Assembly (NCBI GenBank): GCA_028276475.1
Contig: JAPYWH010000010.1
Span: 1-46,580, forward strand
Length of the DNA stretch: 46,580 nt
Source: Thermocrinis sp.
GTDB lineage: Bacteria > Aquificota > Aquificia > Aquificales > Aquificaceae
Direction: 5' to 3'
Positions 3 to 19,260 of this stretch are shown piece by piece (within the stretch, counting starts at the first letter, position 1; every line of letters begins with the position of its first letter). Both the position numbers and the translations under genes were made by a program. The notes beneath the pieces are model-generated. The model searched no databases. It saw nothing but the letters and a program-made list of their open reading frames with translations, and was not told the origin of the DNA.

Positions 3-536
3 CTAACCATCACCTTTGCCCTAATTGGCTTTTTCTTCTGGAACTTCCCCTTTGGCTACATATTCTTAGGAGACGGCGGAGCATACCTTTTAGGCTTTTT
101 GGCTGGGCTTTTGGGAGTTTTAGTAGTAGAAAGGCATTCAGAAGTTTCCCCGTGGTTTCCCCTCTTGCTTTTGCTCTATCCCATTTATGAAACCATTTTT
201 TCTATAATCAGAAAAAAATTTATGAGGGACGCATCTCCCTTTGAACCTGACCCTATACATCTTCATATGCTATTTTACAAAAGATTAATAAAGCCGAATT
301 TCAGTAATACTTTACCTACTTTTTTAACTAACTCCCTCACTTCTCCTTACCTCTGGTTTATAACCTTTATCTGCGTTATACCCGCGGTGCTCTTTTGGAA
401 TAGGACCATTCTTTTAATGCTTTTTAGCATACTTTTTATGCTGTTTTACACTTGGCTTTACTTTAGGATCGTTAGGTTCAAAACGCCAGAATTTCTAACA
501 CTGCCCCTTAAGATTTTGAAAGAACGGCTTCAATAA
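3..536 (+). CDS. WecA/MraY-family undecaprenyl-phosphate sugar-1-phosphate transferase, 5' truncated
   Basis: The frame is open from the window edge, so the N-terminus is missing; 177 codons remain. The visible part is hydrophobic with several membrane segments. Near its start it carries the segment PFGYIFLGDGGAYLLGF, which matches the conserved cytoplasmic Asp/Gly-rich motif of the polyisoprenyl-phosphate N-acetylhexosamine-1-phosphate transferase family (WecA, WbpL, MraY). A later HLHMLFYKR stretch resembles the His-rich loop found in WecA-type members. Such enzymes start a lipid-linked glycan on undecaprenyl phosphate at the inner membrane. It faces the polysaccharide cluster and its 3' end overlaps the neighbouring glycosyltransferase gene by 29 bases. 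WecA rather than MraY is inferred from this context. Confidence 0.85.
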   Translation, partial: LTITFALIGFFFWNFPFGYIFLGDGGAYLLGFLAGLLGVLVVERHSEVSPWFPLLLLLYPIYETIFSIIRKKFMRDASPFEPDPIHLHMLFYKRLIKPNFSNTLPTFLTNSLTSPYLWFITFICVIPAVLFWNRTILLMLFSILFMLFYTWLYFRIVRFKTPEFLTLPLKILKERLQ

Positions 537-1638
537 GATTGATATATTCTCCCACTATTTTCTCTACGCTGTATTTGTCTTCCGCCAACCTTCTACCCGC
601 TTTACCAAATTCTCTGAGCTTTTCATCCCCCAACTCAGCAATTCTCTTCATCGTCAAATACAAACTCTCCACATCTTTTGGCTTTACCAAAAATCCATTA
701 ACTCCATCAACGCATACATTTCTGCAACCGGGTGCGTCGGTGGTTATTATGGGCTTTTCCATAGCCATAGCTTCGAGTAAAACTCTCGGAACGCCTTCTC
801 TGTATGAGGGCAGAACCACGCAATCCGCCATGCAATAAAAGGGTCGGACATCCTCTTGGAAGCCATGCCATTCAATTAAACCTTCTTTCATCCATTTTTC
901 AAGCTCTCCTTTACTAATTGAATTGGGATTTCCCTCGTCCGGACTTCCAACGATAATAAGTTTTACCTTTGGTTTTTCTTTTTTCAGTTTTTCAAAAGCC
1001 TTTATCAGTTCATAAATTCCCTTATCTGTTAAGAGCCTTCCCACAAAAAGGAAAGTAAATCCATCTTTTTTTGCTTCTTTGCATAATTCAGGATCAAAGT
1101 GCTTTATGTCTATACCTTCGCTTTCAATCAGAAAACTTTTTTCTTTTGATATATTTCTTAATGTGTTTAAGTCTTCAGAGTTTAGAAACACAACCGCCCT
1201 ATTGAATCTAAAAGCAAGCCAATATAAAAGTTTTACAAACTTGGTGAGCCAGCTTTCCCTTATAAACACATACCCAAGCCCGGTTATTACACTTATTGAT
1301 GGGATACCCAGCAAGCCAGCGGATATGGAGCCATAGATGTTTGGCTTTATGGTAAAGTTAATAACAAGGTCTGGTTTTAGCCTTCTAAAAAGCAAAAAAT
1401 ACTCAAAAAATAGCTTGAGGTCTTTAATGGGATTTGTCCCTTTTCTGTCTAAGTTTTTCACTGGAAAAAAACTAAATTCCCTTCTCAACAACTCCGAATA
1501 CTTCCCATCCTCCGGAGAGATTGCCATAACTTCATAATCTTTCTCTTTTAAAGCCCTCATCAAGTGAAGCCTAAAGTTGTATAGACTGAAGGCAGTGTTT
1601 GAAGATAAAACTATTCTTTTCTGTTTTTTCTTTTCCAT
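508..1638 (-). CDS. GT4 glycosyltransferase, PglA-like
   Basis: The 376-residue protein has a GT-B fold layout. The N-terminal acceptor domain contains a stretch (INFTIKPNIYGS, then ITGLGYVF) typical of PglA/WbpU-like transferases that add the second sugar to an undecaprenyl-linked N-acetylhexosamine. The C-terminal donor-binding domain begins at about residue 195 (FLFVGRLLTDKGI). The EGVPRVLLEAMA segment supplies the E-x7-E motif of GT4 retaining enzymes. It is the last gene of the leftward polysaccharide unit, 21 bases after the nucleotide-sugar dehydrogenase, and converges on the WecA-like gene. This pairing suggests it extends the primer made by that enzyme. The acceptor and donor sugars cannot be read from sequence. 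Confidence 0.88.
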   Translation of the reverse strand: MEKKKQKRIVLSSNTAFSLYNFRLHLMRALKEKDYEVMAISPEDGKYSELLRREFSFFPVKNLDRKGTNPIKDLKLFFEYFLLFRRLKPDLVINFTIKPNIYGSISAGLLGIPSISVITGLGYVFIRESWLTKFVKLLYWLAFRFNRAVVFLNSEDLNTLRNISKEKSFLIESEGIDIKHFDPELCKEAKKDGFTFLFVGRLLTDKGIYELIKAFEKLKKEKPKVKLIIVGSPDEGNPNSISKGELEKWMKEGLIEWHGFQEDVRPFYCMADCVVLPSYREGVPRVLLEAMAMEKPIITTDAPGCRNVCVDGVNGFLVKPKDVESLYLTMKRIAELGDEKLREFGKAGRRLAEDKYSVEKIVGEYINLIEAVLSKS

Positions 1639-1659
1639 GCTTTAGAATCTATATTTTTT

Positions 1660-2979
1660 CTACAACCTCCAATATATGAAACCCAATCTTTCCGCATCCT
1701 TTCTATCAAAAACCCCCTTTATGTCAAAAAGTATTGACGGTTCACAAGACAACATTTTAAGCCCTTCTAAGTTAAATGTTTCAAGGAATACCCTATGCCT
1801 TACCACATACAAAATAGCATCGTAAGGAGCTTTTTCTTTGTAATCCTTTTCAAGCTCTATATCAAACTCCTCCTTTACTTCTTCCTCCTTTGCTATTGGA
1901 TCATAGACCACAGGCTCAATTCCAAACTCTCTAAGTTCTTTTATAACTTCGAAAACTTTGCTGTTTCTGACATCTGGCACATTCTCCTTAAAAGTTATCC
2001 CAAGCACTAAAACTTTTGCACCCTTTACCTGCTTTCCTGCCTTGATAAGCGTTTTTACAAGCTCATGGGCTACATAAATGGGAATTTCTTCATTTATTCT
2101 CCTTCCTGCCAAGATGAGTTCAGGCACATACCCAACTTCTAAAGATTTATGGGCAAGGTAATATGGGTCCACCGGAATGCAGTGCCCTCCCACAAGCCCC
2201 GGCTCAAACCTCAAGAAGTTCCACTTGGTTCCCGCAGCCTTTAAAACCTCTTTTGTGTCAAGCCCAAGTCTATGGAATATAAGGGCTAACTCGTTTATAA
2301 GGGCTATGTTTATGTCCCTTTGAATGTTTTCTATCACCTTTGCCGCTTCCGCTGTCTTAATATCGGGTGCTTCATAAACTCCCGCCTTAACCACAGTTCC
2401 ATAAACCTCAGCAATTAGTTCTAAAGTCTCCGGAGTGTCTCCCGCAACTACCTTTATGACCTTTTCAATAGTGTGCTCCCTGTCTCCCGGATTTACCCTT
2501 TCTGGAGAGTATCCCACAAAAAAGTCCTGCTTCCACTTGAGACCGCTTTCCTTTTCCAATATTGGCACGCAGACCTCTTCTGTCGCTCCCGGATAGACGG
2601 TAGATTCATAAACCACCACACTACCCTTTGTTAGATTTTTACCCACCACCTCCGAGGCAGACTTTAAGAAGGACAGGTCTGGGTTCTTTAGCTTATCCAC
2701 AGGCGTAGGCACTGCCACAATTATGAACTTACACTCTCTTATTGCGGAAGGGTCGTCAGTAAAAGAAAGATTAGGGTTTAAAAGCTTTTCCCTGTTTTCC
2801 ACTTCGCCCGTATAGTCTATTCCTTGCTTTAAAGCTTCCACCCTCTTTGAATTCTTGTCAAAGCCAACCACCTTAAAGTGCTCCGCAAGGCTAACCGCCA
2901 AAGGCAAACCTACATACCCAAGCCCCACAACGCAGATTTTTTCTTTGCCGGCTTTCAACCCTTCAAGGAGGGTATTCAT
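1660..2979 (-). CDS. tviB: UDP-N-acetylhexosamine 6-dehydrogenase (TviB/WbpA type)
   Basis: The protein belongs to the UDP-glucose/GDP-mannose dehydrogenase family and makes a nucleotide-sugar uronic acid by two NAD-dependent oxidations. An N-terminal Rossmann motif (VVGLGYVGLP) binds NAD. The catalytic Cys lies in GGHCIPVDPYYLAH, and the C-terminal domain (ILYVVRHRVF region) resembles the TviB/WbpA subgroup. An ATG exists at 2997, but the ATG at 2979 is preferred: it has GGAGGT six bases upstream and overlaps the stop of the preceding GT4 gene in an ATGA junction. The product is 439 residues, usual for the family. It would supply acidic sugar to the surface polysaccharide. UDP-GlcNAc versus UDP-GalNAc specificity is not decidable here. 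Confidence 0.9.
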   Translation of the reverse strand: MNTLLEGLKAGKEKICVVGLGYVGLPLAVSLAEHFKVVGFDKNSKRVEALKQGIDYTGEVENREKLLNPNLSFTDDPSAIRECKFIIVAVPTPVDKLKNPDLSFLKSASEVVGKNLTKGSVVVYESTVYPGATEEVCVPILEKESGLKWKQDFFVGYSPERVNPGDREHTIEKVIKVVAGDTPETLELIAEVYGTVVKAGVYEAPDIKTAEAAKVIENIQRDINIALINELALIFHRLGLDTKEVLKAAGTKWNFLRFEPGLVGGHCIPVDPYYLAHKSLEVGYVPELILAGRRINEEIPIYVAHELVKTLIKAGKQVKGAKVLVLGITFKENVPDVRNSKVFEVIKELREFGIEPVVYDPIAKEEEVKEEFDIELEKDYKEKAPYDAILYVVRHRVFLETFNLEGLKMLSCEPSILFDIKGVFDRKDAERLGFIYWRL

Positions 2980-4310
2980 CTCAAGACCTCCCTCCATTCT
3001 TGTACTATCTTTTCAATTCTAAAATCCTCAGCCCTTTGCTTAGCTTTTTCTGAGTAGTTTTTTCTCAAGCTTTCATCTTCAAGTAGTTTATCTATAGTTT
3101 TAACCCACATTATTTCCCTTTCTTCCAAGGGTTCATTTGCACTCTTATATTTTACTTCAAAAGTAGGCATCAAAATTCCATACTCTGCAAACTCTGGCTT
3201 TTGGGTTTGATAGTTAAAATCCGTGTTTGGTGCCAAAATTTCCCTTGGACCGCTTCTGCAGTCGGAAGATACTACACAAACACCGCAAGCCATAGCTTCC
3301 ACCAAGGCATTTGGAAAACCTTCCCACAAAGAAGGAAAAACAAAAAGCTTAGACCTTGCTATGAGTTTGAAAGGGTTTTTCTGAAAGCCTAAAAAATAAA
3401 CATCAAAGCTTTCTGAAAGCTCATCTCTATCCCAAACATAAGTTTTTAGTCCAAGCTCTTCAGAAAGTTTTACTAAATAGTCCTTCAACTCTCCCTCCCC
3501 CAAAATTACAAGCTTTAAATCTTTAAAATAAACATCAAAGCTTTCTGAAAGCTCATCTCTATCCCAAACATAAGTTTTTAGTCCAAGCTCTTCAGAAAGT
3601 TTTACTAAATAGTCCTTCAACTCTCCCTCCCCCAAAATTACAAGCTTTAAATCTTTGTGTTTTTCTTTTAAAGCTTTAAAGACTCTTAACAAATACCATT
3701 GCCCTTTTGGTTTTGTTAGCCTTCCTGCGGTGATTAAAATAGGATATTTAAAAATTTCTTCATAGCTTCCTAATGGCTCCTTTACTAACTCTCTTATTTC
3801 ATCTATCGGATAGGGATTGTAAATCACCTTTATTTTTTCTTCCTCTATGCCAAGATTAATCAAGCTTTCCTTCACTCCGTGGCTAACTGCTATAATTAGA
3901 TCTGCCTTCGGATAAAGAAGTCTTACCAAAAGCTTGTTCAGTTTTCTTAAACCAAGATGACCCGTTTGCTGGTCCATATGCACAGATATTATGGCTCTGT
4001 GCTTCTTAAAAAGCTTAGAAATTATATTTACAAAATTAGCCCTTTCCAAGAATGATACTACAGGCGAGGTTGTTTCCAAGAACCTTGAAAGTTTATACGC
4101 ATATATTGGAATGCTTAAAGTTTTTATTATTGGGCTCGTTTTGGTTGAATGATTGCTAAGAAAAAAAATGGGTTTATCTGTTTTGTATTTAACATCACGC
4201 TCAAGTAAAATAAAGGCAGATGTTGATAAATGCTCGGATAACCTTATTGCTACCTTTTCCGCCCCTCCTCCTGCAAGGGAATTTATGAGAAAATATAGCT
4301 TTACCACCAT
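2976..4310 (-). CDS. GT4 glycosyltransferase with an internal 44-residue tandem duplication
   Basis: The protein has a GT-B fold. The GGGAEKVAIRLSEHL segment near the N-terminus and ITAGRLTKPKGQWYLLRVF are typical of GT4, as is the donor-site stretch SLWEGFPNALVEAMACG. At 444 residues it is longer than usual because 44 residues (from KDLKLVILGEGEL through SFDVYF) occur twice in direct succession, encoded by an exact 132-bp repeat. Removing one copy gives a normal 400-residue enzyme. The repeated part contains the first beta strand and helix of the donor-binding Rossmann domain, so the protein as written may misfold. It overlaps asnB upstream by 10 bases and the dehydrogenase gene downstream by an ATGA junction. 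Enzyme class is firm; activity of this allele is doubtful. Confidence 0.88.
   Translation of the reverse strand: MVVKLYFLINSLAGGGAEKVAIRLSEHLSTSAFILLERDVKYKTDKPIFFLSNHSTKTSPIIKTLSIPIYAYKLSRFLETTSPVVSFLERANFVNIISKLFKKHRAIISVHMDQQTGHLGLRKLNKLLVRLLYPKADLIIAVSHGVKESLINLGIEEEKIKVIYNPYPIDEIRELVKEPLGSYEEIFKYPILITAGRLTKPKGQWYLLRVFKALKEKHKDLKLVILGEGELKDYLVKLSEELGLKTYVWDRDELSESFDVYFKDLKLVILGEGELKDYLVKLSEELGLKTYVWDRDELSESFDVYFLGFQKNPFKLIARSKLFVFPSLWEGFPNALVEAMACGVCVVSSDCRSGPREILAPNTDFNYQTQKPEFAEYGILMPTFEVKYKSANEPLEEREIMWVKTIDKLLEDESLRKNYSEKAKQRAEDFRIEKIVQEWREVLR
3393..3656. repeat. Perfect 132-bp direct tandem duplication (2 copies)
   Basis: Copy 1 is 3393-3524 and copy 2 is 3525-3656. Reading base by base I found no difference between them. 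The unit is exactly 44 codons, so the reading frame of the glycosyltransferase is kept. The copies abut directly with no linker. Full identity means a very recent event, a polymorphic expansion, or an assembly error. Confidence 0.97.
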
Positions 4311-6226
4311 TTATCCCTCCATATCTCAAACACAAACAATAGCCAAAGCTTGTTATGATTTACTCCTCTGTCAAAAAGATAATCCTCTAAAAGCCTTTTG
4401 ACCTCTAAATGGTTAAACAAACCTCCTCTTTTTATTCTTTCTTCGTTTAAATACTCTTTATACAGCTCTTTCAACTCTCCTTTGAACCACTCATATATTG
4501 GAACTCCAAAACCTTGCTTTGGTCTTTCTACAAGCTCTTTTGGGATGTGTTTATACAAAACCTTTCTTAGCAGATATTTGCTGACCCCGTTTTTATACTT
4601 GAACTCCACCGAGAGTTGAGAAGTCCATTCCACTATTCTATGGTCTAAAAAAGGCTCTCTTCCTTCAAGGGCTACGCTCATGGTTGCCCTATCCACCTTA
4701 ACGAGTATATCGTCAGGAAGGTAAGTTTTCAAATCAAGTAGCATCATTGAGGCAAATGGATCAAGCCCATCAACCAAAATCCAATCCTTTAACCGCTTCT
4801 TTTCCGATGGCTCTATTCCCAAAAGCTTAAGGTCCTCCTCCAAAAAGTAGCTAAGGGCTAAATCATACTGTTCCATAGTATCTTTAGCCTTCAAGACATT
4901 CCTAAGCTTTATGTATTTGTCCCTAAAGTTGGTGTATTTTGGCAGAATTGGTTTAAATGCGTTGTAAAGCTTCAAAGCAAGGTCTGGATGGATGAGGTCA
5001 AGGATGTTGGCAAGCAGATTAGAAAAAGGAATTTTTGACAGCTTGGCTATTCTGTCTGTAATCAACCAATACCTTGTATATCCGCAGAACTGCTCATCCC
5101 CCCCGTCCGCTGATAGGGAAACTTTAACCTGGGATCTGGCAAGCCTTGAGACCAAGTAGGTAGGAATGGCAGAAGAGTCTCCAAAAGGCTCGTCGTAAAT
5201 CTCCGGTAGCTTTGGGATTATTTCAAAGGCTTCTTTTGGAGTGCAGTAAAGTTCCGTGTGTTCTGTTCCAAAATACTCTGCCACTTTTTTGGCATACTCC
5301 GCCTCGTTGTATTCCTTTTCGTAAAAGCCTATGGTAAAGGTCTTTAGCTTAATTCCTTCCTTTGAAAGCAGGGCACACACGGTGGAAGAGTCTATGCCAC
5401 CGCTCAAAAACATTCCTACTGGCACATCAGAGACAAGCCTAAGCTTGAAGCTCTCTGTTAAAATCTCCTCAAGCTCCTGTGCCAGTTCCTCCTCTGACCT
5501 CTTTAGCCACTTATCCTTTTCTTCCTTTCCCTTCAGGAAATAATCTTCTACCTTCCAATAAGGGAATTCCTCAATGTTTCCCTTTTGGTTTAAGGCTAAA
5601 AAGTGTCCGGGCTTTAGTTTACAGACATTTTCAAAGATAGAATAGGGTGCTGGTATGTAGCCGTATTTTAGGTATAGAGAAAGCCCAGTGATGTTTAGCT
5701 TTTTTTCAAACTTTGGGTGTTTGTGAAAAGCTTTTATCTCTGACGTAAACATAAAAAGTCCGTTTTTGTAATAGTAATACAGAGGCTTTACGCCTATCCT
5801 ATCCCTGCAAAGGATAAGCTTTTTGTCTTTTTTGTCCCATATGGCAAGGGCAAACATGCCACGGAACTTATGGACTGCAGAAAAACCCCATCGGTGGAAA
5901 GCCTTAAGGATAACCTCCGTGTCTGAGTTTGAGATAAATTTATAGCCTTCTTTTTCAAGCCCTCTTTTTATTTCTTTGAAGTTATACACCTCTCCGTTGT
6001 AGGTTATCACTAAATTTTCAAACTCCATGGGTTGATGCCCAAGCGGAGAAAGGTCAAGGATGGAAAGCCTTCTGTGTCCCAAAGCTACGGGAAAGTCTTT
6101 ATCTATAAAAATTCCCGCATCATCTGGTCCGCCATGAACAAGAGTATCACGCATAAGTGTAATGGTTTCCTCAAGGGAGTAAGAGTTTTTGAAGTTGAAG
6201 TCAATGAAGCCTACTATTCGGCACAT
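4301..6226 (-). CDS. asnB: Glutamine-hydrolysing asparagine synthase-like amidotransferase
   Basis: The 641-residue protein has an N-terminal class II glutaminase domain with nucleophile Cys2 (start MCRIVGF; most relatives read MCGI). Glutaminase motifs GHRRLSILDLSPLGHQPM and ITYNGEVYNFKEIK follow. The synthetase domain carries the PP-loop VGMFLSGGIDSSTVCALL and a Mg/AMP region SLSADGGDEQFCGYTRYW. AsnB forms asparagine from aspartate, glutamine and ATP. Members of this size inside polysaccharide loci are often thought to amidate a sugar carboxylate, which would fit the adjacent uronic-acid-forming dehydrogenase; that is inference. It overlaps its upstream neighbour by 13 bases and the downstream GT4 by 10, so the unit is translated as one operon. 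Confidence 0.92.
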   Translation of the reverse strand: MCRIVGFIDFNFKNSYSLEETITLMRDTLVHGGPDDAGIFIDKDFPVALGHRRLSILDLSPLGHQPMEFENLVITYNGEVYNFKEIKRGLEKEGYKFISNSDTEVILKAFHRWGFSAVHKFRGMFALAIWDKKDKKLILCRDRIGVKPLYYYYKNGLFMFTSEIKAFHKHPKFEKKLNITGLSLYLKYGYIPAPYSIFENVCKLKPGHFLALNQKGNIEEFPYWKVEDYFLKGKEEKDKWLKRSEEELAQELEEILTESFKLRLVSDVPVGMFLSGGIDSSTVCALLSKEGIKLKTFTIGFYEKEYNEAEYAKKVAEYFGTEHTELYCTPKEAFEIIPKLPEIYDEPFGDSSAIPTYLVSRLARSQVKVSLSADGGDEQFCGYTRYWLITDRIAKLSKIPFSNLLANILDLIHPDLALKLYNAFKPILPKYTNFRDKYIKLRNVLKAKDTMEQYDLALSYFLEEDLKLLGIEPSEKKRLKDWILVDGLDPFASMMLLDLKTYLPDDILVKVDRATMSVALEGREPFLDHRIVEWTSQLSVEFKYKNGVSKYLLRKVLYKHIPKELVERPKQGFGVPIYEWFKGELKELYKEYLNEERIKRGGLFNHLEVKRLLEDYLFDRGVNHNKLWLLFVFEIWRDKWW

Positions 6227-7413
6227 TTTAGAAACTTCAAGATTTCATTAATATACTCTTTTTCATTTTCTTTAATAATTCTTTCCATTTCCCTTCTATA
6301 CTCTTTAATATAAAGCTCTGTAAGTTTAGGCTTATATTCAAAGAAAGATTTATAACTGCTGCTTATCGTTGAAAGTATATTTTTAAGTTTAGGGCTTTCA
6401 ATCTGAATAGTTTTAATTTTTTTATTCACATAAACAATTTGGGGTATTCTATGCTTTGACTCAACAACATTAAACAAAACAACGATTTTTTCTACTTTTG
6501 ATAAAAAGCTTATATGCATAAATCCACCATCAGGACATATTACAGCATAAGCACTATTTAATATTTTAATCGTCTTTTCTATACTGTCTGTGTATATACC
6601 ACTTACTTTAGCAGAATTTAACAATTTTTGACTGTATGCTTTAGCTTCATCATCGTAGAGAATTAAAACTTTGTAACCTGATTGAATGAGATTATAGCAC
6701 AAATTGATCCAAAAGTAAACCGGTATTTCTCTTAGCTTGTCTTTTGAATAAGCAAAAACTACTACTGTTTTTCGTGAGTAAAGCTTATCATCGCTGATGT
6801 ATTTAAGTTTTGGTATTTTTTCCTCTACATAAAATCCACAACATTTCAGTAAATTTCCTAGAAGTTCTCCATAAAAACTATTATATAGGTCATATGCTTT
6901 GCAGTTTTCCATATTTGAAGTGCCTAAAATATCTAACCTTGACTTCCCAAGAACTAAATCCAAGGGATCATAGCATACTTTATGATTTGCGTTTACTAAG
7001 AAAAGTGCATAAATATGCTGAATATAAGGCGATGGAAGTATTGCTAAATCGAATAAGTTGTTAATATTCCTTAAGGTTTTATATAGTCCCATTGTGCTTT
7101 TAGGTGTATAGATTATATGAAGATTTTCATAATCTAACAATTTCCAAAAATTATTGTAAGGAGATACTATGTATAATTTTAAGTCTTTTCTGTTGTTTAA
7201 CAAATCATGTATGTAATAAGAGAACATTATATTATCTCCTAATCCATTTTGTGGAGATGTAAGAATTATTATGTTTTTTAATTCATTAATCCTTAGATTT
7301 CGCTTTTTAACAAGAAAATATAACTTGGCAGTATAGCAAAGGGGTACCTTAATAGCAGGTTTAAGTACATCGTAAAAAAAACTATTTACTTTTACACTTA
7401 CACATTCTAACAT
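6214..7413 (-). CDS. GT9-like (heptosyltransferase-family) protein, AT-rich
   Basis: The protein has 399 residues. An N-terminal ILTSPQNGLGDNIMFSYYIHDLL resembles the Gly-Asp acceptor loop of GT9 heptosyltransferases. The C-terminal half has AVICPDGGFMHISFLSKV, equivalent to the family's SDTGPMH donor motif. Similarity is weak elsewhere and the C-terminal tail (ELYIKEYRREMERIIKENEKEYINEI) is a charged helix. By eye the gene is clearly more AT-rich than its neighbours, with many Ile, Asn, Tyr and AAA/ATA codons, suggesting a separate and probably later origin than the rest of the locus. It lies two bases from the methyltransferase gene and overlaps asnB by 13 bases. GT9 membership is likely; sugar and role are unknown. 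Confidence 0.68.
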   Translation of the reverse strand: MLECVSVKVNSFFYDVLKPAIKVPLCYTAKLYFLVKKRNLRINELKNIIILTSPQNGLGDNIMFSYYIHDLLNNRKDLKLYIVSPYNNFWKLLDYENLHIIYTPKSTMGLYKTLRNINNLFDLAILPSPYIQHIYALFLVNANHKVCYDPLDLVLGKSRLDILGTSNMENCKAYDLYNSFYGELLGNLLKCCGFYVEEKIPKLKYISDDKLYSRKTVVVFAYSKDKLREIPVYFWINLCYNLIQSGYKVLILYDDEAKAYSQKLLNSAKVSGIYTDSIEKTIKILNSAYAVICPDGGFMHISFLSKVEKIVVLFNVVESKHRIPQIVYVNKKIKTIQIESPKLKNILSTISSSYKSFFEYKPKLTELYIKEYRREMERIIKENEKEYINEILKFLKCAE

Positions 7414-7414
7414 T

Positions 7415-8425
7415 TCAGTTTTCTGACTTATAAGCCTGAAAATATAAATGCATGCCGTTCTCTTTCAACCTTCCTATATATCCCAAAGCAAAGGGCAAAA
7501 GCACCGCATTCCTAATCAGCTTAAGTATCATAAGTATATAGGCTTTCCCTTTACTTGGGCTAACTTCCGCAAGCTCCTCCACTGCATAAACTCTTGCTTT
7601 TCTCTCATTTCCAAGCACCATTCCCTTTGGCTTTATTTTAAGCTTGTCTAAGTTTCCAAAAAGTTTTTTCTCAAGATAGGGAAAAAGTTCTATGAAAGGG
7701 AAGTCTAATTTGTAAACTTCAATGTCTTTAAACCCAGCAAAATTCAAAGCTTTTTCAAGGGAGGACTTTGAAAATCTTAAAAAGTGGTGAGGAGGATTAT
7801 CTACCCAGGAATTGTTTCGATACATATCTTTCTCAAATACACTTTCCCTATTTGGCACACTTCCCGCTATGTATCCTCCTTCTTCCAAAAGCCCTTTTAC
7901 CATTTCAAGAAATTCCCTTGGTTTGTCCTGATGTTCCAAAACCTCAAAAAAGGTGATTACATCAAACTTTAAGTTTTTCTCCTTAGCGTATTCATAGAAC
8001 TCTTCCAAGCTCATGGCAAAAACGGTGTCAATACCAAGGTTCCTTTTTACATTCTCAACAGATTTTTTGTCAAAGTCTATTCCCCATACTTCAAAGCCTT
8101 GTTCTTTAGCATGTCTTAAAAATCTTCCGTCTCCACAGCCTACATCCAAAAGCTTACCTCTCATATTGGAAGGAAAGTATTTAAAAAATGCTTTGTGATA
8201 TTCATGAAGCCTTGTTCCTATACCCTCGTGAAACGCAATATAGTCTTCAAAAACCTCGCTTTCATAAAACTCTGGAATAATCTTTAATGGCTCCCACCAA
8301 TGAACATCGCAGTTTGGGCACTCATAGTGTTTATACTCTTGATTGTTATAAGGAGAAACATAAGTTTCTTTGAAATTTCGTTCTTCAACCTCTGTGTAGC
8401 ATATGGGACATTTGATCTTATCCAT
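7415..8425 (-). CDS. Class I SAM-dependent methyltransferase with N-terminal zinc ribbon
   Basis: The protein has 336 residues. Residues 5-45 hold two CxxC pairs (CPIC and CPNC) forming a likely zinc ribbon, a layout seen in sugar or lipid methyltransferases of polysaccharide loci. The SAM-binding motif I is LLDVGCGDGRFLRHA at about residues 90-105, followed by the acidic GIDFD. Motif II/post-II is ITFFEVLEHQDKP. The C-terminal part is hydrophobic and may touch the membrane or the lipid-linked glycan. The gene sits between the flippase and the AT-rich GT9-like gene, 11 bases from the former. A role in methylating a glycan residue, perhaps as chain terminator, is inferred from context only. 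Confidence 0.85.
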   Translation of the reverse strand: MDKIKCPICYTEVEERNFKETYVSPYNNQEYKHYECPNCDVHWWEPLKIIPEFYESEVFEDYIAFHEGIGTRLHEYHKAFFKYFPSNMRGKLLDVGCGDGRFLRHAKEQGFEVWGIDFDKKSVENVKRNLGIDTVFAMSLEEFYEYAKEKNLKFDVITFFEVLEHQDKPREFLEMVKGLLEEGGYIAGSVPNRESVFEKDMYRNNSWVDNPPHHFLRFSKSSLEKALNFAGFKDIEVYKLDFPFIELFPYLEKKLFGNLDKLKIKPKGMVLGNERKARVYAVEELAEVSPSKGKAYILMILKLIRNAVLLPFALGYIGRLKENGMHLYFQAYKSEN

Positions 8426-8436
8426 TGTTTTTTATT

Positions 8437-9714
8437 TTAACCTACTTTTAGCTTCCTCTTCAAAATACCGTAAGATACTCTGCAGAGAAAAGCATAAGCA
8501 ACAAAAGTTCCCAAGCATATCCCAGCTATTCCAAGCTTATAAACTACTACAAACAGGTAGTTAAAAAATCCGTTAACTAATATACTAATCAAAGCAGTAA
8601 AAAACACGGGTAGAAGCCAGTTTATAATCTGAAAGGCTCTATATAGGATTGTCCAAGCAAAACCTAAAAACAGAGAAATTGCATAGTATTTAGTAGCGGT
8701 TGCAGTTAGTTCTACATCAGTTAGTGTAAATTTTCCATGTCCAAAGAGGAGTTTTACGGGAATCTCTGGGAAGAAGAACAAAAAAAGCATAACGGGTAGA
8801 GAAACAAGGAGGGAAAACTTTAAAAACTTGTTCAAAGTTTGAATGCTTGCCTTTGTTTCAGAAAGGGATGTAATAGCCATATGTTCAAGTCTTAGAACAC
8901 TTCGTAAGGCAAAGGCGACCATTGAACCATAAGTTAATGCGGACACGCCCTTCTCTCCAAGCAAAGAGGCAAAAGCCCTATCTACCAAGATGAAAAGGTG
9001 GAAAACTCCATACAGTGCAGAGAGAAAAACAAAGTGCTTTAGTATTTCCTTTACCCTTTTGTCTATAAAAAAACTAAAGTGTAGGAACTCTTTGCCAATG
9101 AATATCATGTACAGGGTTGCCACAAACTGCGAAAGGATAAAGCTTATTGGAAGAACCGGAGGGCTGTGGAAAAGGTAAAGCCCTAACGCTATAAAAAGAA
9201 AAGAGAAGAAAGAAAATATAAACTCTCCAATAAAGTATGGAGTAAAATACCTCAAGCTTCTTAAGACTGCACCAAAGTGATGGAAGAAGAAGTTTAAAAA
9301 AAGATAGGGAAGGAGTAATAAAAGGTGAAGTTCTGTGGCTTCTTTTGTTCTCTGATCAAAGCCAACCGCTATTTTGGAAAGTAGAGGAATGCCCACTAAG
9401 GCTATAAAGGTTAAAGAAAAGGCTAATATGGTGGTAAATGTGAGGAGAAGTCCTGCAAGTTTTTTGAACTCCTCTTCGCTTTTCATTCTTGCAAAAACAA
9501 GCTGAGGAACTCCGATGGAGTCAAAGACATCTACAAAGATCAGGAAAATGCCAAGAAGGGACAAAGCCATAAAGAAGGCGTCCGTTTGATAGCTAAACCC
9601 AAGGAGTATTGCTATAGCTAAGTGCTTTAGGTATCCAAAGCCTCTTGCGAGTAGGTTTATGGTAGAGGTTTTGATTATGGCGTGCCTTATTGATTCGGGT
9701 TTTAGTTTAAGCAT
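8437..9714 (-). CDS. MurJ/Wzx-like lipid-linked oligosaccharide flippase
   Basis: The 425-residue protein is almost wholly hydrophobic, with about 12 predicted membrane helices. The N-terminal segment (INLLARGFGYLKHLAIAILL, then TDAFFMALSLLGIF) follows the pattern of MurJ/MviN proteins. The gating-type segment FALRSVLRLEHMAITSLSE is also MurJ-like. It is shorter than most MurJ proteins (about 14 helices, roughly 500 residues). Given the surrounding glycosyltransferases it most likely flips the lipid-linked glycan across the inner membrane as a Wzx equivalent, but a cell-wall MurJ role cannot be excluded. Although inside the unit, it has its own TAAAAT box six bases before the ATG, so it may also be started separately. 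Confidence 0.82.
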   Translation of the reverse strand: MLKLKPESIRHAIIKTSTINLLARGFGYLKHLAIAILLGFSYQTDAFFMALSLLGIFLIFVDVFDSIGVPQLVFARMKSEEEFKKLAGLLLTFTTILAFSLTFIALVGIPLLSKIAVGFDQRTKEATELHLLLLLPYLFLNFFFHHFGAVLRSLRYFTPYFIGEFIFSFFSFLFIALGLYLFHSPPVLPISFILSQFVATLYMIFIGKEFLHFSFFIDKRVKEILKHFVFLSALYGVFHLFILVDRAFASLLGEKGVSALTYGSMVAFALRSVLRLEHMAITSLSETKASIQTLNKFLKFSLLVSLPVMLFLFFFPEIPVKLLFGHGKFTLTDVELTATATKYYAISLFLGFAWTILYRAFQIINWLLPVFFTALISILVNGFFNYLFVVVYKLGIAGICLGTFVAYAFLCRVSYGILKRKLKVG

Positions 9715-9720
9715 GCATGT

Positions 9721-9726
9721 ATTTTA
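9721..9726 (-). promoter_or_regulatory. -10 box TAAAAT for the flippase gene, leaderless spacing
   Basis: TAAAAT on the minus strand ends six bases before the ATG at 9714, placing the expected transcription start on the start codon. It overlaps the stop codon of the upstream GT9 gene. No Shine-Dalgarno is present. Confidence 0.45.
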
Positions 9727-10758
9727 TTCTGAAGGGTATTTCCACAGCTCAAGGGCAGAGGAGATAAATTTCTCTATGTCTTGGTGGCTTTGTAGAACCA
9801 CATTCCTCACCCAAGGGTGGTTGTGATAAGCGTAGGGGAAGTCTTTGACGAAAACGCCCAGGGTGGGAACTTTGAGGGCTACGCTCATATGATAGGGTCC
9901 GCTGTCGGAGGATATAAAAAGCTTGCATGCCTTTATAAGACCCACAAGCTCTAATATGTTGGTTTTTCCTGCCAAGTTTAGGGCGGGCAAGTGGTAGCCT
10001 TCCAAAAATCTTTCGTTTACATCCGCTTCAAAGTCCGCTCCGCTTAGGACTAAAAAGGAAGAGGTAGCTCGTTGGACTTTGTGCACCGCTTCTCTGAGCA
10101 GTTCTAAATTGGGTCTTCGCCAGAGGGCGTCGGGGGTTCCACAGCCTATGTTCAAGCCCAAAAGGGGGACATCCTGCGGTATGGAAAATCTGCTTCTCAT
10201 GGTTTCTCTAAACTGCCTGCCCTCTTGGGTTTCCTCCAGCTCTATTGGTAGTCCTTTCCTTTCAATACCAAAGGCTTTTAGAACTACAAAATACCTGTCG
10301 GTATAGTCTTTGCTCTTTAACACAGCCCTACTGGAGGGAGCCTTGTGGGTGTAAAAAAGACCTCTGCCCGGGAATTCTGCGATGCCTACGGATGGAATTT
10401 TGTATTTTAGCCTTGCATACAGACAGAGCATGGAACTTTCCAAGCCGTGTGGTTCCATATCTACAATCAGGTCGGGATTTAGCCCTTTGACTAGCTTATC
10501 AAAGCCTTTGAAAAACTCTATCCAATCCTTCAGACTTTTTAGCCTTTTATCTAAGGTATGAAAGGAAGCTAAAAGGTGGTGTTTTGATATTAATGTTTCG
10601 GACACATAGCCGGGGTCCTTGGTAAGGAAAAGAAGATGCAAGTCTGCGGTTGGGAATTTGTTCTTTAGAGCCCTCCAGCTTGCAGAAGCCCTTAGCATAT
10701 CGCCCACACCCGCGGAATGCACCATAATGAGAAGTATTTTTTTAATGTGCTTTTCCAT
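9724..10758 (-). CDS. GT9 heptosyltransferase-family glycosyltransferase
   Basis: The 344-residue protein has the standard GT9 layout. The N-terminal ILLIMVHSAGVGDMLRASAS contains the acceptor-side Gly-Asp loop with its catalytic Asp. The C-terminal donor-binding stretch is LFISSDSGPYHMSVALKVP, matching the ADP-heptose-binding S/D-T/S-GP-H motif. Family members transfer heptose or related sugars to LPS core or other glycolipids at the inner face of the inner membrane. It overlaps the O-antigen ligase-like gene by 17 bases. The window has two GT9 members (this and 6214-7413), this being the better conserved. Heptose is the likely donor from family knowledge but is not proven. Confidence 0.88.
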   Translation of the reverse strand: MEKHIKKILLIMVHSAGVGDMLRASASWRALKNKFPTADLHLLFLTKDPGYVSETLISKHHLLASFHTLDKRLKSLKDWIEFFKGFDKLVKGLNPDLIVDMEPHGLESSMLCLYARLKYKIPSVGIAEFPGRGLFYTHKAPSSRAVLKSKDYTDRYFVVLKAFGIERKGLPIELEETQEGRQFRETMRSRFSIPQDVPLLGLNIGCGTPDALWRRPNLELLREAVHKVQRATSSFLVLSGADFEADVNERFLEGYHLPALNLAGKTNILELVGLIKACKLFISSDSGPYHMSVALKVPTLGVFVKDFPYAYHNHPWVRNVVLQSHQDIEKFISSALELWKYPSE

Positions 10759-11878
10759 GTCTTTCCACTACCCTAAACATAAGAAGGATCCAAGGAAGCA
10801 TAGCATCCCAAAAGCCGGTGAATATGCTACCAATTAGCAAAACGGACAGGAAAGATAAGGAAGGCAAGAGTAAAAGGTCCTCCCTTTGCCTTATTTTGAA
10901 GCGGAAGAAGAAAGAGTAGTAGGCAAACCAAAGCCACAGAATGCCCGCAAGACCAAGAACGCCCTTTTCTATGAGTTCAGAAAGTAAAAACACAGATTCG
11001 TAGGTGCCACCCACGGGAGATTTGGGCTCCAGATAGTAGCCGGAGTTTATGCCGTGTCCTATCAAAAGCTCCAAGTAGTTCTTTTCCTTTATGTCTTTTT
11101 GCAACACTTCTAAACCCTTTTTGAAGATCTCCCACCTTAGGCTTGAAATGGAGTTGAGGGCTTGGTCGTCTAAGGCTCTTTTGCCCGTTATTAGCTCCCA
11201 AGCGGTGGCAAAGCGGTGGTCTTTTTCCACCAAAATGCCAAAGGTCAAAGAGCCCGCAAAGGTCAAGGAAAGCAGAACGAATGCTAAGACCTTTTTAGAG
11301 ATAACACCTCTGAGTAGGTAAAGAAGGAAAATCAGCGTGATGACCAAACCAAGCATGGCAGACCTTCTCATGCTAAAAAACACAAAGCCCAAAAAGAGCA
11401 AAAAGAGTAAAAGGTAATAGACTCTCTTGGTGTATAAAAACATAGCTAAAGCACATAGGGAAAAAAAGGAATAGAGCAGTCCCACTTCAAACCAACCACC
11501 CCAAAGGGGGGCGGGCTGTCCTGTTCTGAGAAACTTATAGATAACCACAGGGATCAAAAGAACGCCCGCCATTATCAAAAAGAGGTTGAACTTTTTAAAA
11601 AACTCATAGCGGAGCTTTTCTTTGCCACCCAAAGGATACACAAGCAAAAACAAAGACCTTTCTATACCCTTTCCCAAATGGGAGGGAGTGTATAAAATGG
11701 TTGATAACAAGGTGGGGATGGCGTAAAGGAGCAGAGGGAAGAACAACCTTCCGTAAGGTTTTAGCCCACCTCTTGCGATGGAGTAAAAGGTATATGCGGT
11801 CAGAATTATAATTAGCCCTTCAAACAGGGATATGGACAGGAGCATAAAGAGGGTGGTTAAAAGGATGAGCCTTTGCAC
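10742..11878 (-). CDS. O-antigen ligase/polymerase (WaaL/Wzy_C family) membrane protein
   Basis: The 378-residue integral membrane protein has about ten hydrophobic segments. A large polar loop near residues 240-300 (around LIGHGINSGYYL and GGTYESVFLLSELIEKG) has the features of the periplasmic loop of Wzy_C/O-antigen ligase proteins. Such proteins move a finished glycan from its undecaprenyl carrier to lipid A core or protein, or polymerise repeats. It is the first gene of the leftward polysaccharide unit, starting at a GTG 20 bases after def. Possible -10 elements lie just upstream (a TAAACT seven bases before GTG), but the assignment is uncertain. Ligase versus polymerase cannot be separated by sequence alone. 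Confidence 0.82.
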   Translation of the reverse strand: MQRLILLTTLFMLLSISLFEGLIIILTAYTFYSIARGGLKPYGRLFFPLLLYAIPTLLSTILYTPSHLGKGIERSLFLLVYPLGGKEKLRYEFFKKFNLFLIMAGVLLIPVVIYKFLRTGQPAPLWGGWFEVGLLYSFFSLCALAMFLYTKRVYYLLLFLLFLGFVFFSMRRSAMLGLVITLIFLLYLLRGVISKKVLAFVLLSLTFAGSLTFGILVEKDHRFATAWELITGKRALDDQALNSISSLRWEIFKKGLEVLQKDIKEKNYLELLIGHGINSGYYLEPKSPVGGTYESVFLLSELIEKGVLGLAGILWLWFAYYSFFFRFKIRQREDLLLLPSLSFLSVLLIGSIFTGFWDAMLPWILLMFRVVERHGKAH

Positions 11879-11898: not shown

Positions 11899-12405
11899 CT
11901 ATCTATAAACTTTCCTTTTGAATAGGTCCTTGGGTGAGAGGACTCTTTCAATGAATAGCTTGCCCTCCAAGTGGTCTATTTCATGTTGGATTACAACCGC
12001 CTCAAAGCCCTCTGTATCAAAAACAAACGGGTTTCCCTTTGGGTCCATAGCCTCAACCTCTATCCAATAGTGTCTTTTTACATTTCCCGTGTAATCGGGC
12101 ACGCTGAGGCATCCTTCTCTTACGATTAACTCTCCCTCAAACCTTTTTATCGTTGGGTTTATCAGGACCATAAAGCCATGGCTCAGTTTGTTCTCTTTGT
12201 GCTTAGAGTTGGAGGTATCCACAAGGATTATACGCTTATGCACATTGACCTGAGGCGCAGCGATGCCCACGCAAGCGGGGGAGTTAGCCATAACCAACCT
12301 TAGCTTTTCAATAAACTCCTGCAGTTCTTTACCAAAGTCCAGAACTTCAGAGGATGGAATCTTTAACCTCTCGTCTGGATAGGTAAGAACTTCAAGCCTT
12401 TTCAT
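11899..12405 (-). CDS. def: Peptide deformylase
   Basis: The 168-residue protein carries all three deformylase motifs in order: VGIAAPQV (motif 1), REGCLSV with the metal-ligand Cys (motif 2), and VIQHEIDHLEGKLF with the HExxH-type ligands and catalytic Glu (motif 3). It removes the formyl group from nascent N-termini at the ribosome. Length is normal for a type 1 bacterial enzyme. The ATG overlaps the stop of the upstream ACT-domain gene in an ATGA junction, so the two are translationally coupled. The polysaccharide unit begins 20 bases further on. Confidence 0.97.
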   Translation of the reverse strand: MKRLEVLTYPDERLKIPSSEVLDFGKELQEFIEKLRLVMANSPACVGIAAPQVNVHKRIILVDTSNSKHKENKLSHGFMVLINPTIKRFEGELIVREGCLSVPDYTGNVKRHYWIEVEAMDPKGNPFVFDTEGFEAVVIQHEIDHLEGKLFIERVLSPKDLFKRKVYR

Positions 12406-18043: not shown

Positions 18044-18064
18044 AAGTTTAAGAGAGGGAAAAGG

Positions 18065-19095
18065 CATCCCACACGGTGGGCTTGGAACCGGGTATCTGGC
18101 GATAGCATGGAACCTACACTGCACGAGTCACCATCCCACACGGTGGGCTTGGAACCTTGCAGTCTTCGGTCCCTTTTATGAGTGCAATGACGTCACCATC
18201 CCACACGGTGGGCTTGGAACGAGATAAGAGAGTATTGTGATTATGGAATTCTTGGAAAGTCACCATCCCACACGGTGGGCTTGGAACTACTCAAGGAGTT
18301 AGAAAAAGAAAGCACGGGAGTGGGTCGCCATCCCACACGGTGGGCTTGGAACGCGGAAAGAGTGAGTGTTTATGACTTGAAAGAAAAACGTCGCCATCCC
18401 ACACGGTGGGCTTGGAACCCTTCCCAGCCCAAGCCTCAGCCCTCCCAGCAACTCTGTCGCCATCCCACACGGTGGGCTTGGAACTGGAGTTATGGGACTG
18501 GCTGGAAAGTTTAAGTTTAAAGGAGGGTCGCCATCCCACACGGTGGGCTTAGAACAGGTAGTTATCAAAAATAGTAAGTACTACCTCCGTGTTTCATCGC
18601 CATCCCACACGGTGGGCTTGGAACACAAAAGCCAGCAAGAGCCAGTGGACAGCATGCACAGAAGTCGCCATCCCACGCGGTGGGCTTAGAACCTTACTGC
18701 CTCGTATTTACACCCACACAATTGAGGAGAAGTCGCCATCCCACACGGTGGGCTTAGAACAGGTAGTTATCAAAAATAGTAAGTACTACCTCCGTGTTTC
18801 ATCGCCATCCCACACGGTGGGCTTGGAACCTGTTTTAAGTGTTATAGAAAAGGGTGTGTGTTTTTTGGTCGCCATCCCACACGGTGGGCTTGGAACTTGA
18901 GGTCAGGTTAAGCTTGAAAAGTGAGAAAATGAAAGGTCGCCATCCCACACGGTGGGCTTAGAACAGCACTACTATATGGCATCAAATACGCACGTGGAAA
19001 GGTCGCCATCCCACACGGTGGGCTTAGAACTTCCTTAAACTCTCGCAGAATGTCCTCGAATTCTTCGTCGCCATCCCACACGGTGGGCTTAGAAC
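18065..19095 (-). CRISPR. CRISPR array: 16 repeats, 15 spacers, no cas genes in the window
   Basis: The repeat is 29 bases: on the plus strand it begins GTCGCC, has the palindromic core CCCAC-ACG-GTGGG, and ends CTTGGAAC or CTTAGAAC. Repeats start at 18065 (partial), 18127, 18192, 18259, 18324, 18390, 18456, 18527, 18596, 18664, 18732, 18801, 18868, 18936, 19002 and 19067. Spacers are 36-42 bases. The leftmost repeat has lost its outer five bases. Repeats 2-4 read GTCACC and later ones GTCGCC; all but three of the rightmost nine end AGAAC. Decay on the left and long non-coding DNA on the right suggest the leader is on the right with leftward transcription, but the near-symmetric repeat prevents certainty. 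Spacers 18556-18595 and 18761-18800 are identical. Confidence 0.97.
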
Positions 19096-19260
19096 CCCAA
19101 ATCACCACATTAACCAAAATAAGACATATCAATCATTTTGTCAAGGGGGCACCCTTTTCAAATGAAGTTAATTTTCCGAAATCCGAGATCATGCAAAGTT
19201 GAGTCTGTTATTGTCAAACTCAAATCTCTGTCTCCCAACACTTTCCGCCACTGACCATAA

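Follow-up and report, generated by a model that had tools for sequence, protein, structure and literature searches.

Exact duplications in pneumococcal capsule genes are described as turning the capsule off and as reverting (Waite 2001, 2003, as cited in PMC4243769 and PMC4022640). We regard these duplications, which affect cap3A, cap8E (wchA) and tts, as the closest precedent for the locus presented here; no relevant literature was found on duplications in Thermocrinis glycosyltransferases. The stretch of DNA that we analysed, in the following called the window, comprises 46,580 nucleotides and corresponds to contig 57 of a 68-contig, 1,297,871-base Thermocrinis-type (Aquificaceae) assembly with 97% completeness and 0.35% contamination. 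The nearest named relative locus is L033 from a Thermocrinis sp. bin. As in the pneumococcal cases, the window carries a polysaccharide gene of which one internal segment is duplicated exactly and in tandem.

The preliminary description had reported a 132-bp in-frame tandem duplication inside a glycosyltransferase gene, and three comparisons reproduced this result. Tandem Repeats Finder returned positions 3393-3656 of the window with a period of 132, 2.0 copies, 100% matches and 0% indels. A separate repeat search of the window gave the pair 3393-3524 and 3525-3656 at 100% identity and a direct string comparison showed that the two directly adjoining copies of 132 bp (44 codons) are the same. 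The repeated length is exactly 264 bases, as not a single further base matches at a period of 132 on either side. The chance expectation for an exact tandem match of 132 bp in the window is ∼10^-70 and chance is thus excluded as its origin. The gene is located on the minus strand and the unit starts in phase at offset 654 of the gene, so that neither a stop nor a frameshift is introduced and the frame is kept. Copy A (3525-3656, minus strand) comes first in the protein, where it encodes residues 219-262 (KDLKLVILGEGELKDYLVKLSEELGLKTYVWDRDELSESFDVYF), and copy B (3393-3524, minus strand) encodes residues 263-306. In gene orientation the junction between the copies reads GTTTATTTT|AAAGATTTAAAG.

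The duplicated ORF (2976-4310, minus strand) encodes a GT4-type glycosyltransferase with a GT-B fold. Its product is 444 aa long versus 399-410 aa in close relatives. For the 444-aa protein we obtained Pfam matches to PF00534 (E=3.3e-35), PF13692 (E=7.3e-28) and PF13439 (E=1.5e-10), i.e. a Glycos_transf_1 C-terminal domain together with a GT4-type N-terminal domain. The AlphaFold2 models of both an orthologue and the window protein show two Rossmann-like domains that are similar to solved GT4 enzymes in the Foldseek comparison. The motifs GRLTKxKG and EGFPNxLxEA (the E-X7-E region) are intact and occur once each, with GRLTK at residue 196 and LWEGFPNALVEA at residue 328, and K202, E330 and E338 are invariant in the glycosyltransferase alignment.

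Based on profile matches of its neighbours the gene belongs to a polysaccharide cluster spanning 508-11878 on the minus strand. The cluster includes a second GT4 enzyme, a UDP-glucose/GDP-mannose dehydrogenase, an asparagine synthase-like protein, a methyltransferase, a MurJ-like flippase and a GT9 enzyme as well as a weak match to Wzy/O-antigen ligase, and a peptide deformylase gene lies at its edge (11899-12405). One further gene of the cluster (6214-7413) encodes a 399-aa protein without a Pfam match at E 1e-5. The site between the glycosyltransferase and the nucleotide-sugar dehydrogenase genes is a variable cassette site, as the gene found there differs by species. In the window (2957-2997) there is no gene between the two neighbours, which overlap; in L033 (1615-2646) we found a methyltransferase-like gene that occupies two overlapping frames, together with a short asparagine synthase remnant; and L005 (2682-3699) carries a GT2-like gene. 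Two related copies of the glycosyltransferase gene studied here lie near each other on contig 1 of G023 (1345228-1347661, locus L007) and another two on contig 2 of G002 (250269-251504 and 256645-257829), which suggests an older duplication of a whole gene in the cluster.

As proposed for a check in the preliminary description, we compared the orthologous gene in relatives. We aligned 25 sequences, namely the window protein and 24 relatives that range from other Aquificales to Thermodesulfobacteria, Campylobacterota and Firmicutes. The unit is present once in all 24 relatives (G006/L033, G003/L005, G002/L006 and 21 further sequences), and the additional 44 residues are restricted to the window protein. 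Among them are two syntenic orthologues: the one in G006/L033 has 400 residues and shares 93-94% protein identity over pieces, and the one in G003/L005 has 399 residues and shares 90-91%. The duplication therefore arose on the lineage of the window, and an old duplication common to the relatives is ruled out because every relative is single-copy. Neither repeats nor a variable number of units, as would be expected of an evolved repeat-based contingency locus, were found in the related species, with one unit in all relatives examined; the seven genomes of the genus included here represent one genome per species.

The window gene differs from its nearest orthologue (L004) at 81 of 1,200 nucleotide positions (6.75%). 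Had the duplication occurred at the time of the split from L004, ∼9 differences between the copies would be expected, compared to 0 observed. Barring gene conversion, which could mask an older age, the duplication is thus younger than ∼0.34 of the L004 split at 95%. Together with the single copy in all relatives this supports a very fresh mutation, one of the readings put forward in the preliminary description. We also compared the substitution patterns. For the window gene against L004 we calculated a dN of 0.034 and a dS of 0.229, and the lineage-specific non-synonymous to synonymous changes were 9:18 for the window, 10:21 for L004 and 19:41 for L005. The ratio of the window matches those of the orthologues, and relaxed selection or gene decay on its lineage is not seen. 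Such a pattern would be anticipated for a very young event or for an enzyme that is still functional.

In order to place the duplicated unit in the protein structure we used AlphaFold2 models that were built with the relatives as alignment. The unit was previously said to cover the first part of the donor-binding domain. This holds in outline; more precisely, it comprises a strand-helix-strand-strand segment within the C-terminal Rossmann domain of the GT-B fold and corresponds to the elements E222-226, H232-241, E246-248 and E260-262 of the orthologue. The mean pLDDT was 90.6 for the two-copy protein and 94.3 for the orthologue. In the two-copy model copy B occupies the normal place in the fold and copy A is extruded as an insertion between helix 204-219 and strand 266-270, with a low pLDDT of 42-76 over residues ∼221-260 and values of at least 84 on either side. 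The best match among solved structures was 6eji_A for both proteins, with a target-normalised TM of 0.81 for the orthologue and 0.80 for the two-copy protein (Foldseek). In a Rossmann fold the turn from helix to strand is on the side opposite the donor-binding strand ends. As the turn that receives copy A faces away from those strand ends, the insertion need not block the active site. A folded two-copy protein thus appears geometrically possible; its stability and activity are beyond the reach of the model. AlphaFold2 is ill suited to judging the destabilising effect of an insertion. The two-copy enzyme may retain its activity, have reduced activity or be inactive. That the protein is inactive, a possibility raised earlier, does not follow from these models, as the frame is open, the motifs are intact and present once each, and the predicted fold accommodates one copy and extrudes the other. 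The duplication serves as a warning that the annotated protein of 444 aa is not the normal form of the enzyme.

There are several conceivable origins for the duplication. The junction shows 0 bp of extra microhomology on both sides, which argues against simple slippage between short direct repeats. Ku-dependent end joining was also rejected: no Ku gene (PF02735) was found in the 97%-complete genome itself, with B. subtilis as a positive control. The right-hand breakpoint (3656|3657) falls within the 15-nt loop of a perfect 10-bp inverted repeat at 3642-3676 (AAGCTTTAAA/TTTAAAGCTT, arms 3642-3651 and 3667-3676). Both arms are conserved in L005 and one mismatch occurs in L004. With loops limited to 30 nt this is the sole loop of a stem of at least 10 bp in the cluster, and such loops (≤30 nt) account for 0.04% of the positions in the genome sample. 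Considering only the gene, there is a ∼2% chance that this loop is hit by one of the two breakpoints, a value to be read with the caveat that the hairpin was chosen as a feature after the breakpoint had been seen. The single-strand fold at the hairpin is unremarkable (z = −0.99). The left-hand breakpoint (3392|3393) lies in the 19-nt loop of a 6-bp inverted repeat (GAAAGC/GCTTTC, 3383-3413). This feature is weak, as ∼6% of positions are in a comparable situation: loops of stems of at least 6 bp cover ∼12% of the positions in the genome sample and 6% if the loops are restricted to ≤20 nt. We take the hairpin as a lead for the cause of the duplication. The duplication may have originated from cleavage or polymerase switching at the hairpin; the genome contains an SbcD gene, which allows hairpin cleavage and proves nothing.

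The explanation that we consider probable is that 132 bp of a GT4 gene in a polysaccharide cluster were duplicated in tandem in one recent and spontaneous event. The duplication, represented by one assembled allele, would be inherently revertible without being a dedicated switch. A replication or break-repair accident without flanking short repeats, perhaps aided by the hairpin at one breakpoint, would have produced the second copy. Folding of the protein may still be possible, in which case copy B would complete the second Rossmann domain and copy A would be extruded at an edge. Because the copies are perfect and adjacent, contraction is expected, and a RecA-dependent or RecA-independent event would bring back the form with 400 residues at an appreciable rate. 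Such reversibility is the default for every perfect tandem duplication and does not require an evolved switch. The duplication is an ordinary kind of mutation that could undo itself.

An alternative is that the gene has a single copy and the assembler walked a loop once too often. The assembly is fragmented into 68 contigs, contigs down to ∼2.5 kb hint at a metagenome bin, and the unit of 132 bp is near the usual k-mer and read lengths of short-read data, all of which favour such an artefact. However, the ends of the unit share 0 bp, so that no single-copy k-mer joins the end of the unit to its start and a false loop would need reads that cross the junction. De Bruijn assemblers rather collapse repeats than expand them, which also counts against an artefact, as does the in-frame length with its chance of 1 in 3. 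In a sample of 570,588 bases of the same assembly, from which masked stretches reading as N (L116-L118) were removed, there was no other exact tandem duplication with a unit of at least 30 bp. The lack of a second case in these 0.57 Mb speaks against a general tendency of the assembler to duplicate and makes the misassembly considered in the preliminary description less likely; on balance we regard an assembly error as rather improbable. For comparison, 400,000 bases of the complete genome G003 contained a single exact tandem duplication, which lies within a CRISPR array; there the repeat-spacer unit at the array end is tandemly duplicated with a period of 66 (L130:6769-6914). The window itself has a CRISPR-like array at 18049-19121 with ∼16 repeats spaced 65-71 bp, in which an identical 98-nt repeat-spacer-repeat block occurs twice (18527-18624 and 18732-18829).

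If the allele is real, it could still be part of a phase-variable switch of a surface polysaccharide, in which the duplication inactivates the enzyme, loss of one copy reactivates it and such events occur readily at the locus. The principle would be the same as for the duplications in pneumococcal cap3A, cap8E and tts, as far as these are described in PMC4243769 and PMC4022640, the gene is situated in a polysaccharide cluster and fragility of the site could result from the hairpin at one breakpoint. On the other hand, among the relatives examined there is neither a repeat nor an array nor a copy number other than one, inactivation is not evident given that frame and modelled fold are kept, and there is one allele only in a single assembly. 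The reversible on/off switch that was proposed earlier thus has no positive support beyond general contractility, with relatives lacking the repeat and no array of units, and we consider it improbable. It is more doubtful still that the extra 44 residues were retained because they are helpful, for example as an additional surface element. The duplication is in frame, without a stop and without a sign of relaxed constraint, and the extruded piece is modelled as an insertion that leaves the domain intact; but the copies have had no time to diverge and hence carry no trace of selection on the two-copy form, and the extruded copy is modelled at low confidence. More speculatively, and very improbably in our view, a hairpin-fragile site in Aquificaceae would yield recurrent in-frame duplications whose gain and loss tune the enzyme in a manner resembling phase variation in a free-living hyperthermophile. 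If mixed copy number accompanied by a surface change were true, duplication-based phase variation would extend to free-living thermophiles, and in that case the driving force could be pressure exerted by phages on the surface polysaccharides.

With a single spontaneous duplication as the preferred reading, the locus adds one case, from the polysaccharide cluster of a hot-spring bacterium, to a mutation class that is known from pneumococcal capsule genes. The enzyme can be compared to WlaC (6eji), HepE (4xso) and BshA (3mbo), which share the GT-B fold and are the best solved-structure matches of both the orthologue and the two-copy protein; unlike the Thermocrinis protein they contain one copy of the strand-helix-strand unit. 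With the ordinary segmental in-frame duplications of sequenced bacterial genes the locus shares fresh, perfect and adjacent copies and the lack of a dedicated recombinase. Compared to those it differs in having no junction homology and one breakpoint within a 10-bp hairpin's loop, features that describe one event and do not define a separate class. With the duplications in pneumococcal cap3A, cap8E (wchA) and tts, as summarised in the citing articles, it has in common an exact tandem duplication inside a gene of polysaccharide synthesis whose contraction would restore the gene. With respect to abolished function, which characterises the pneumococcal type, we found that the frame is kept, the modelled fold is intact and copy A is extruded. 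The pneumococcal cases as cited there further differ in that capsule loss and reversion were observed in cultures, whereas the Thermocrinis case is known from one assembled allele, and here the host is a hot-spring chemolithotroph in which a gene for a GT4 enzyme carries an in-frame duplication.
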